Assembly: GCF_030812255.1 (NCBI RefSeq)
Contig: NZ_JAUSSH010000001.1
Span: forward strand, 310,001-374,000
Source: Paeniglutamicibacter psychrophenolicus
GTDB lineage: Bacteria > Actinomycetota > Actinomycetes > Actinomycetales > Micrococcaceae
Direction of reading: 5' to 3'
Length of the DNA: 64,000 nucleotides
The translations under genes were made by a program, and so were the position numbers. The stretch's first letter is position 1; every line of letters starts with the position of its first letter. Positions 7,245 to 24,272 of the stretch are shown piece after piece. The notes beneath the pieces are model-generated. The model did not search any database. It worked only from the letters and a program-made list of their open reading frames with translations, and was not told the DNA's origin.

Positions 7245-8069
7245 TTATGCGACAGAGCGCATGAACTCGCGTGCAGCGGCGGCATGGCGCCCCTGGATTC
7301 CAAGGAACAGCTCTGCGCTTCGGTGTCCGGGCCAATTGCCGGGCAGGTAGTCCTCGGGCAAGCCGGGGTCCAGATAGGGGATGGTACGCCAGGAGTCGAT
7401 GGCGCGAACGTAGGCCGCGAAGCTGTCGCCGGCGCTCGGGAAACCGGTCTCGGCCATCGCCCCGTTCTGTTCGAGGAACATCTGGTGCAGAGCGGCCAAC
7501 GCATCCAGGTCCCACCATGCTGCGGCCAGGGCCCGCGGCGTGCCGGTGAACTCCAGGGTGTTGGAGACAATGATGGTCGCGTGGTCCTCCAGGCCGAGCA
7601 CGCGCAGGATCTCCCACACCTCGGCGCGCAGGTAGTCCGGGAAGATCCACAGCCCCGGGGCCACCAACCCGCCACCGATACCCTGCAGGTACTTGCGCAG
7701 TTGGTGGCGGCGTTCGCGTTCGGACTCCGGAATGGAGTAGGAGGCCAGGCACCACGAGTCGTCCGCGCCCATGGAACGCGGCTCGAAGATGCGCCGATCC
7801 CCGCGGGCCAGGATGCGTTCGCCGGTGGCCGTGAGCTCGAGCCCCGAAACCCCGTCGCGTTCCCGTTGCTCCAGTATCCCCTTCTTCTTCAGGCGTGAGA
7901 TCGCCGTCCGGGTCACCTGCGCCTTGGTGCCCAGGGCGTCCATCAGCGCGATCAGGTGCGCCGAGGAGATCCAGCCGCCCAATTCGCGCAGGTACAGACC
8001 CACGATGGTGCGCACCAGGGAAGTGGTGCTGCCCGGGCGGGCATCGAGGTCATCGAGTTCGGAAAGCAC
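7245..8069 (-). CDS. PaaX-family transcriptional regulator
   Basis: 274-residue protein with the PaaX layout: an N-terminal winged helix (TSLVRTIVGLYLRELGGWIS, then VTRTAISRLKKKGILE), a middle domain (RRIFEPRSMGADDSWCLASY, RRHQLRKYLQGIGGG) and the PaaX C-terminal domain (AWWDLDALAALHQMF). PaaX proteins repress aromatic-acid catabolism in response to CoA thioesters. Here it lies 9 bp after tryptophan 2,3-dioxygenase in one operon, so control of tryptophan/kynurenine breakdown is a likely role. It starts with GTG. Confidence 0.85.
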   Translation of the reverse strand: MLSELDDLDARPGSTTSLVRTIVGLYLRELGGWISSAHLIALMDALGTKAQVTRTAISRLKKKGILEQRERDGVSGLELTATGERILARGDRRIFEPRSMGADDSWCLASYSIPESERERRHQLRKYLQGIGGGLVAPGLWIFPDYLRAEVWEILRVLGLEDHATIIVSNTLEFTGTPRALAAAWWDLDALAALHQMFLEQNGAMAETGFPSAGDSFAAYVRAIDSWRTIPYLDPGLPEDYLPGNWPGHRSAELFLGIQGRHAAAAREFMRSVA

Positions 8070-11007: not shown

Positions 11008-11181
11008 CTACCTGGCCGGGAAAAGCCGCCCGAGCCAACCGCCCTTCTTTTCCTTGGGCACATTCGGGTCGCAGCTGCATCGTTCGGTGCGCGGCACGTG
11101 CTTCATGACCTGCTGGACGTGTTGTCCACAGCCGGCCCAGGTGCTCTTTGAGCATTTGCGGCAGGTGACTGCTCGACACAT
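11008..11181 (-). CDS. 57-residue Cys-rich small protein
   Basis: Starts MCRAVTCRKCSKSTWAGCG and continues with QHVQQVMKHVPRTERCSC, then a basic tail. Six cysteines, arranged C-x4-C-x2-C-x7-C and a later CSC, plus two histidines suggest a zinc- or copper-binding knuckle. The ATG at 11181 has GGAG 7 nt upstream; the open frame extends further 5' without a ribosome site. Short proteins with the core C-x2-C-x3-TWAGCG are widespread in actinobacteria, and I know of no assigned function. A CsoR-type operator lies 67 bp upstream in a likely promoter, which points to a copper-related role. Confidence 0.75.
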   Translation of the reverse strand: MCRAVTCRKCSKSTWAGCGQHVQQVMKHVPRTERCSCDPNVPKEKKGGWLGRLFPAR

Positions 11182-11247
11182 ATTCGTTCTCCAGGGGGAA
11201 GTCCAAGGCGAAGACCGATTGGATGACGCCCAAACCAACTATCTCAT

Positions 11248-11263
11248 ATACCCCCAGGGGTAT
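11248..11263 (-). promoter_or_regulatory. CsoR-type operator upstream of the small Cys-rich gene
   Basis: Perfect 16-bp palindrome ATACCCC-CA-GGGGTAT. On the minus strand it lies between TTGATA (-35-like) and GATAGT (-10-like), 17 bp apart. G/C-tract palindromes flanked by ATA/TAT are the hallmark of CsoR/RicR-family copper or persulfide sensors. A site with 15 of 16 identical bases, in the same orientation to its gene, stands at 23244-23259. Confidence 0.6.
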
Positions 11264-11345
11264 CAAAATGGATGGCGTGGGCACCATCGCAAGCGCCCCG
11301 CACCCGCCAATCCGAAGCAGCCGGGGACCACGGATCGAACGCGGG

Positions 11346-23243: not shown

Positions 23244-23259
23244 ATACCCTTGGGGGTAT
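23244..23259 (+). promoter_or_regulatory. Second CsoR-type operator
   Basis: ATACCC-TTGG-GGGTAT. In the orientation of its downstream gene it differs from the site at 11248-11263 by a single base. It lies 33 bp before the ATG at 23293 and could control the small membrane protein and the FMN reductase behind it. Confidence 0.55.
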
Positions 23260-23292
23260 GTATCTCGGGCTTTCCGGGGACTTCAGGCGGCA

Positions 23293-23529
23293 ATGGCGGG
23301 ACGTGGCGGAATGCGGGATCGGGTGATCTGGCTGGTGGTTGGCGTGGTCCTTGCCGCCATGGCGGCATCGCTGTGGACCGATGCGTGGGTTGCCGCCCTG
23401 GGCGCCGGGTCCGCGGCAGCCTATTGCCTGCTGGCGGCCATCCGCGGACGCTGCTTCGGCGACGCGTGCGCGCTGTCGACCATCGATGTGCTACCGGTGG
23501 AAAAGGTCCAAGAAACCGCCCGGGAATGA
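23293..23529 (+). CDS. Small membrane protein downstream of a CsoR-like site
   Basis: 78 residues with two hydrophobic stretches (RVIWLVVGVVLAAMAASLW and WVAALGAGSAAAYCLLAAI), then RGRCFGDAC with two cysteines and an acidic tail. Layout resembles the DUF2892 (YgaP-type) membrane domain found in CsoR/CstR-regulated sulfur and copper operons, but the match is loose. A second in-frame ATG at 23311 follows GGCGGA and may be the true start. An FMN reductase starts 62 bp downstream on the same strand. Confidence 0.6.
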   Translation: MAGRGGMRDRVIWLVVGVVLAAMAASLWTDAWVAALGAGSAAAYCLLAAIRGRCFGDACALSTIDVLPVEKVQETARE

Positions 23530-23591
23530 ATTGGGGGCCGTCGTGGTTTTACATGCAAACACATGTACTCCATGAAAGGGAGCCACACACC

Positions 23592-24272
23592 GTGAGCCAA
23601 AACATCGTAGTCATCTCCGGCGGCCTGGGCACGCCATCGACCTCCGGCCTGCTGGGCCGCCAGCTCGGCGAATCCGCCGTCAAGGAACTTGCCGCCATGG
23701 GCGTCCAGGCGGACCTGACGGTGCTGGAGCTGCGTGACTACGCCGCGGACATCACCAACAACCTGCTCACCGGCTACGCCCCGCCGCGCCTGGCCGAGGC
23801 CATCGAGGCGGTCCGCACCGCCGGCGGATTGATCGCGGTATCCCCGGTCTTCACCGCCTCGGTCTCCGGGCTCTTCAAGTCGTTCATCGACGTCCTCGAC
23901 CCCGCCTCGCTCGACGACAAGCCCATGATCCTGGCCGCCACCGGCGGAAGCGCGCGGCACAACCTGGTCGTCGACTACGCGATGCGCCCGATCTTCGCCT
24001 ACCTGCGCGCACGGATCATGCCCACCTCCATCTTCGCCTCGCCCGAGGACTGGGGAGCGGACCAGGGCCATGGAGCTCTGGCCGAGCGCGAGCGCCGGGC
24101 GGGGGCCGAGCTGGCCCAGGCCATTGCCGGACCCAACGGGGCAGCCGCACACACCCAGGACCTGGGCGACACCCGCTCAATCGCCCCGCGCGTGAGCGAG
24201 ACCGCGAACCCGCGGGACAACATGACCTCGCTGCCCTTCGAGCAGTTGCTGGCCAACATCCAGGCGGGCTAA
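23592..24272 (+). CDS. NAD(P)H-dependent FMN reductase (CE1759 type)
   Basis: 226-residue flavodoxin-fold reductase. SGGLGTPSTSGLLGRQLGES is the FMN phosphate loop, SPVFTASVSGLFKSFIDVLD the second binding loop, and LAATGGSARHNLVVDYAMRP the third. Length and wording match the CE1759-type partner of luciferase-like monooxygenases. That LLM partner, normally adjacent, is absent. GTG start with AAGGGAG upstream. It may share a transcript with the small membrane protein before it. Confidence 0.85.
   Translation: MSQNIVVISGGLGTPSTSGLLGRQLGESAVKELAAMGVQADLTVLELRDYAADITNNLLTGYAPPRLAEAIEAVRTAGGLIAVSPVFTASVSGLFKSFIDVLDPASLDDKPMILAATGGSARHNLVVDYAMRPIFAYLRARIMPTSIFASPEDWGADQGHGALAERERRAGAELAQAIAGPNGAAAHTQDLGDTRSIAPRVSETANPRDNMTSLPFEQLLANIQAG

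Follow-up and report, generated by a model that had tools for sequence, protein, structure and literature searches.

A 57-residue cysteine-rich protein behind a CstR-type operator in Paeniglutamicibacter psychrophenolicus: a candidate part of actinobacterial persulfide defence

Introduction

The cst operon of Staphylococcus aureus encodes a dioxygenase-rhodanese, TauE and CstA, a TusA-type sulfur carrier, and is governed by CstR, a persulfide-sensing repressor of the CsoR family. In Mycobacterium tuberculosis, MymT is a copper metallothionein under the copper sensor RicR. The gene described here follows the logic of the cst operon, in which a small thiol carrier is likewise included. By description alone it also resembles MymT, which has some 50 residues, is rich in cysteine and is likewise encoded behind a CsoR-family operator.

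In Streptomyces coelicolor sulfane sulfur is sensed by ScCsoR (SCO0620), which uses Cys37 and Cys66 for this purpose and binds a 16-bp ATACCn6GGTAT site, according to the portion of the report available to us (PMC7533328). That site, a CsoR-family repressor with two sensor cysteines, and genes for a persulfide dioxygenase, a rhodanese and TauE are shared with the loci analysed in this study. In the same portion the circuit is described with four genes and the mini-protein is unmentioned; the family was not found in 12 presumed Streptomyces genomes. In the copper CsoR regulon of S. lividans, as described in the part of PMC3902906 at hand, a similar G-tract TAC/GTA palindrome is bound by a CsoR-family tetramer and controls copZA. 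The Streptomyces copper consensus is 21 nt long and has a five-base spacer (N5), whereas the site described here has a spacer of four (N4).

Results and discussion

A short coding gene with an operator in its promoter

The window, the whole 64,000-nucleotide stretch that was analysed, carries on its minus strand (11008-11181) an open reading frame for a 57-residue protein with cysteines at positions 2, 7, 10, 18, 35 and 37 of the translation. The protein starts from the ATG at 11181 with MCRAVTCRKC and has an internal TWAGCGQH core; we coined the name MCRA family for it and its relatives. The six-cysteine protein claimed by the earlier note was thus found, the range given there (11008-11263) including the leader and the operator. 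Comparison with three same-genus orthologues gave dN/dS values of 0.28, 0.15 and 0.19, indicating purifying selection, and the frame is therefore a real coding gene. A GGAG ribosome-binding site, located by eye, lies 7 bases ahead of the ATG (11189-11192, minus strand). The gene is a solo copy with no sulfur genes adjoining, flanked by what we take to be an HNH-nuclease-like frame on one side and an RNase-H-like frame on the other.

Upstream, at 11248-11263, is the perfect 16-bp palindrome that the earlier note had pointed out, with two 7-bp arms, ATACCCC and GGGGTAT, around CA (ATACCCCCAGGGGTAT). Its TACCC-N4-GGGTA geometry is that of the S. coelicolor ScCsoR site (PMC7533328, the portion available). 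This published geometry and the relatives described below bear out its assignment to the CsoR-family type. The palindrome had been placed between -35- and -10-like boxes. Both boxes were seen by eye on the minus strand, but the operator is not strictly between them: the -35-like TTGATA (11261-11266), kept in the three same-genus orthologues, covers the first three operator bases. The best -10-like box, GATAGT (11238-11243), lies 5 bases past the operator and 17 bases past the -35-like box, and is inexact in the orthologues.

Operators, family copies and CsoR-family repressors in the host genome

Pattern searches were compared with shuffled and backwards controls. Allowing up to three mismatches, the operator matched at two places in the window (four strand-wise matches) against a shuffle mean of 0.25, and four matches were reached in 0 of 100 shuffles. 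In the 4.57-Mb genome, with up to one mismatch, it occurred at eight places against one per strand for the backwards pattern. Contig C10 has four of the eight, the window two, and C2 and C12 one each. The C12 site, with one mismatch and amid genes of other kinds, looks like chance. The exact pattern was present in 14 of 19 genomes (0-6 sites each) and its backwards control in none. A chance palindrome was rejected on the shuffles and on both backwards controls, those of the own genome and of the 19 genomes.

The second N4 operator of the window, ATACCCTTGGGGGTAT (23244-23259), precedes a frame for a 78-residue, two-helix YgaP-like protein (23293-23529, plus strand), a probable member of the same regulon as the family gene. 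A frame with a GTG start (23592-24272), presumably flavin-reductase-like, also lies behind this operator, so that the group spans 23244-24272. An N4 site with the small YgaP-like frame recurs in 5 of 11 same-genus genomes; in a family-wide sample of 61 genomes the frame was found in three, all of this genus. Those 11 genomes hold 23 operator clusters, 17 with the family gene (in a cst operon or as a solo copy like that of the window), five with the YgaP-like gene and one, made of two sites 2.1 kb apart, with a rhodanese. In two more distant genomes the family gene stood beside 0 of 7 N4 sites. Five of these seven had a sulfur-type gene (CstR, rhodanese, thioredoxin or, by eye, a sulfide:quinone reductase-like frame) and two had no recognised one.

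The host genome holds three family copies, namely the window gene, one on C10 and a 38-residue short form on C2, and an N4 operator is upstream of all three (3/3). The order on C10, read by eye, is presumably a divergent CstR-type repressor, the family gene, an MBL-fold persulfide dioxygenase-rhodanese, a rhodanese with a YgaP-like tail, a further rhodanese and TauE. The short form on C2 is divergent from a thioredoxin gene, with the N4 site between the two. Three CsoR-family repressors are encoded in the genome. At the sensor positions the repressor next to copA and copZ reads Cys-His-Cys, whereas the C10 and C17 repressors read Cys-Gly-Cys and, on these residues, are without the copper-ligand histidine. 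The CstR-like repressor on C17 (L045, 4641-6168), the second of its kind, is solitary and has an imperfect site, GTACCCCCGGGCGTAT, in its promoter; downstream of it is a frame which we take to be MOSC-like.

The operator and sulfur genes accompany the family

In a sample of the order, 94 of 198 genomes carried the family, in agreement with the earlier claim that such proteins are widespread in actinobacteria, and in at least 48 of 396 genomes of the phylum, a lower bound as 16 candidates per genome were scored in most genomes. A scan of genome contigs confirmed at least 585 relatives. The best 80 of them were kept as named loci, which are for this reason biased to close relatives. Within up to 8 kb on each side, a CstR-like gene was present at 50 of these best 80, a dioxygenase-rhodanese at 32 and one or more sulfur genes at 60. 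Within 250 bp upstream, 44 N4, four N3 and no N5 operators were found. An N4 or N3 site is thus present at 48 of the best 80 relatives, and operator and sulfur gene were both missing at none. Among the 32 without an operator of their own, 27 follow a same-strand sulfur or thioredoxin gene at a distance of 700 bp or less and are therefore probably co-transcribed with it; two have no such gene within 5 kb upstream. After deduplication, 136 members remained, 135 of them with at least 150 bp of upstream sequence, and these gave 67 N4, four N3 and no N5 sites. With the site present before orthologues in both counts, the idea of the earlier note survived the operator check that it had proposed.

Throughout the 1.18 Mb of named loci the palindrome occurred 116 times with spacer 4, nine times with spacer 3 and three times with any other spacer from 0 to 10 (spacer 5: none); the reversed control gave 0. 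Among control frames of at least 100 residues, an N3 or N4 site within 250 bp upstream was seen for 27 of 92 sulfur genes and 34 of 774 others. Several of these 34 are, by eye, divergent neighbours or themselves sulfur genes (sulfide:quinone reductase-like, CoA-disulfide reductase-like, thioredoxin). Alignment of 43 N4 sites from the named loci showed that the right arm enters a TATnnT hexamer, whose sixth base is T in 36 of the 43; the operator therefore covers the -10 box in most relatives. Two Agromyces relatives (L048, L071) have a 15-bp N3 operator, ATACCCCAGGGGTAT and ATACCCCCGGGGTAT, upstream of the family gene at 8001.

The family co-occurs with CstR

In the 198 genomes, family and CstR were found together in 82, the family only in 12, CstR only in 16 and neither in 88 (Fisher p 6e-26, uncorrected for kinship). 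A strong CstR match was taken as E up to 2e-12, a cut chosen after the gap to 2e-9 had been seen. Of 125 family places, 43 are within 600 bp of CstR and 66 within 5 kb. In genomes with no strong CstR match, an operator preceded 1 of the 12 copies examined, and most had no sulfur genes around them; for one copy (L170) the upstream sequence was limited to about 150 bp. The single operator-bearing copy of this set (L167) is on a 4.1-kb contig of a fragmented genome. Nine of the copies (L168, L169 and L171-L177) have neither an operator nor any of the queried sulfur genes. When CstR is encoded at a distance, the operator was kept by 6 of 7 scored copies; the eight genomes of this comparison were hand-picked, and one (L182) gave no member by motif and was left unscored. 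The operator thus tends to come and go with CstR. The operator-less copies in CstR-less genomes also indicate that the family protein has some use outside the CstR regulon. No family member was found in 12 genomes, taken for Streptomyces, among those without a match in the phylum search with its 16 candidates per genome in most genomes. These genomes and the 16 with CstR only indicate that the family protein is dispensable for the CstR circuit.

We consider it very likely, on the sequence evidence, that the window gene belongs to a CstR (sulfane-sulfur) regulon. The mini-protein is probably an unrecognised working part of actinobacterial persulfide defence.

The conserved residues suggest a metal-thiolate mini-domain

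Residue conservation was followed in 174 distinct frames of at most 75 residues, picked without requiring cysteine, from which four unrelated frames were removed by eye. C10, C18, H21 and C35 are present in all 170 remaining relatives; C2 and C7 are in register in 169, the 170th being one residue short in the CxxC loop. An extra ligand follows C35 in 170/170, as C37 in 55, H38 in 109 and H39 in 6. The conservation of the cysteines is not fully independent, because the searches partly used the TW.GCGQH core. Exchange of Cys and His at one position is typical of metal ligands. Seen here at the last position, it favours a metal ligand there more than a sulfur-carrying thiol, and a zinc-like metal site stays plausible. 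Short forms of 37-43 residues end shortly past the ligand residues, which makes the ligand region the family core, while longer forms have an extra variable linker and a GFFxRLFGR-like tail. These residues together (C2, C7, C10, C18, H21 and C35, with C37, H38 or H39) suggest a metal-thiolate mini-domain, and a metal-binding fold appears somewhat favoured.

AlphaFold2 gave a weak model (pLDDT 69.8, pTM 0.37) with two strands around the CxxC and a helix after CGxH; the single-sequence model was worse than the alignment-based one. A Foldseek search with this weak model returned nothing significant (best E 4.9). The window protein had no Pfam, NCBIfam or PDB-sequence match over the curated cut-off or E 0.001, and no Pfam family matched any of 42 members with E below 0.027. 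Membership of a known family was rejected on these searches. Compared with CstA of S. aureus, the mini-protein is much smaller and has a metal-ligand-like spacing, and the 42 members gave no TusA match in Pfam at E up to 1. In the literature searched, mostly without subscription papers, neither a characterisation of the family nor the string AGCGQH was found, in line with the earlier note, which had called such proteins uncharacterised. Despite much current work on persulfide sensing, this gene, linked with CstR in many actinobacteria, appears to have been overlooked, probably owing to the shortness of the frame.

A possible role in handling sulfane sulfur, and two alternatives

In the mechanism that we propose, a CstR-type repressor encoded elsewhere in the genome (on C10, perhaps also on C17) would shut the promoter at the predicted site 11248-11263. 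On accumulation of persulfide or polysulfide, CstR would be modified at its two sensor cysteines and come off the DNA, so that the mini-protein would be made together with the persulfide dioxygenase, the rhodaneses and TauE. The effector and the release of CstR are taken from the published S. coelicolor work; geometry, conservation, linkage and co-occurrence come from the sequences compared. The product would be a mini-domain of the metal-thiolate kind, compact in fold and with the pattern CxxC-x7-CxxH-x13-C followed by C or H. Its reactive thiols may accept sulfane sulfur, Cys2 (N-terminal after removal of Met) and Cys35 first. The sulfur could then be handed to a rhodanese, the dioxygenase or thioredoxin. 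The proposal as a whole, a CstR-regulon metal-thiolate mini-protein that accepts and passes sulfane sulfur, has in our judgement about an even chance of being correct. The acceptor or carrier role taken separately is a tentative assignment, a little below even. A further generalisation is rather doubtful, namely that the family consists of metal-thiolate proteins dedicated to trapping and carrying sulfane sulfur, produced on demand via a persulfide sensor across actinobacterial chromosomes and plasmids. If true, the family would resemble a metallothionein that deals with sulfur instead of metal. The mini-protein is a small candidate for what handles sulfane sulfur on its way from persulfide to enzyme in actinobacteria.

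The main rival to the acceptor or carrier reading is a zinc-finger-like adaptor of the same regulon, which would hold structural zinc, dock onto a partner and tune its activity without carrying sulfur. Such a role is possible, if somewhat unlikely. The CxxC and CxxH spacing, the Cys/His choice at the last ligand, the modelled hairpin around the CxxC and helix after CGxH, and the tail conserved in long forms are all consistent with it. However, the model is of low confidence with no significant structural match, no zinc-finger Pfam family matched the 42 members better than E 0.097, the tail is missing from the short forms, and the invariant Cys2, outside the finger spacing, is left unexplained. 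The partner of the adaptor might be the dioxygenase, a rhodanese, thioredoxin, CstR or, via the tail, a membrane.

Less probable still is a metal buffer or repair factor for sulfide stress. It would keep hold of a thiophilic metal, zinc or some other, which proteins would lose to sulfide and persulfide, and return it. The ligand-like set of cysteines and histidine would suit this function, and the evidence for the regulon serves it equally. Against it, no metal transporter or zinc regulator was conspicuous among the neighbours read, a reading that was unsystematic, and a CopA-like match was present in 6 of the loci of the best 80 of at least 585 relatives.

One spacer base separates the sulfur from the copper operators of this order

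For comparison, 20 copper-type loci of the same order (L239-L258) were hand-picked from among the weaker matches listed. A strict N5 site was present in 15 of the 20 and an N4 or N3 site in none. The repressor had Cys-His-Cys in 19 and Cys-Tyr-Cys in one, and the family gene was in 0 of 20. The host genome agrees: its own copper repressor promoter (C2, L044) has two TACCC-N5-GGGTA sites, ATACCCCCTGAGGGTAT and GTACCCCCATGGGGTAT, with a spacer one base longer than that of the window site. In the named loci the copper-ligand His is replaced by Ala, Gly or Ser in 46 of 48 distinct repressors (one has Glu, one was unread), and no CsoR-family gene in the loci of the best 80 of at least 585 relatives matched a copper CsoR best. 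Thus, copper and sulfur operators of the CsoR family differ in this order by one spacer base, N5 against N4, a rule by which two confused regulons can be separated from sequence. The portion of PMC7533328 at hand likens the ScCsoR site to the sites of Geobacillus CsoR and of RicR, which senses copper in M. tuberculosis. The rule is therefore not to be stretched to all bacteria, and N4 alone is not always decisive.

The earlier note had left the sensor as one for Cu(I) or persulfide. The spacer, the sensor residues of the neighbouring repressors, the operon content and the co-occurrence are all of the persulfide type and point to CstR, so that the persulfide half of the proposal is favoured and the copper half disfavoured. 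Its suggestion of a copper or zinc chaperone or sink divides similarly: the copper part is disfavoured by the persulfide-type regulon, and a zinc-like site keeps its plausibility from the Cys/His swap at the last ligand. A copper-handling protein (chaperone, sink or metallothionein-like) controlled by a CsoR that senses Cu(I), as MymT is by RicR, would fit the CsoR-family operator, the many cysteines, the MymT precedent, the few CopA-like matches and the likeness to the RicR site, but is very improbable given the N5 spacers of the order's copper loci, of the genome's own Cys-His-Cys copper CsoR and of the S. lividans regulon (PMC3902906, the part at hand), and the repressors and neighbours of the sulfur type, which set the mini-protein apart from MymT. 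Membership of a copper regulon was disfavoured on the lack of N5 at the best 80 relatives, the sensor residues and the neighbours.

Copies on plasmids, on a phage scaffold and in a locus labelled Acidobacteria

One locus labelled Acidobacteria (L092) may come from a mislabelled metagenome-assembled genome, because its neighbours resemble, by eye, those of Arthrobacter. In a plasmid collection the family was found in 67 records in one search and 60 in another; the named organisms are actinobacteria (two genera are unnamed in the 67-record set). In 38 of 40 plasmid records listed there was no annotated feature under the match, in a gene table that describes itself as incomplete. The family frame of an Arthrobacter plasmid, itself unannotated, occupies the gap from a gene labelled 'metal-sensitive transcriptional regulator' to one labelled 'MBL fold metallo-hydrolase', after which come two rhodaneses and TauE. 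A rhodanese and a metal-sensitive regulator are close to the family frame on a Clavibacter plasmid, and on a Rhodococcus plasmid TauE, rhodanese and MBL-fold genes are 3-5 kb from it. An unannotated human-gut phage scaffold, MT835623.1 (L238, 6001-6162), carries a full-length relative which is 66% identical to the query.
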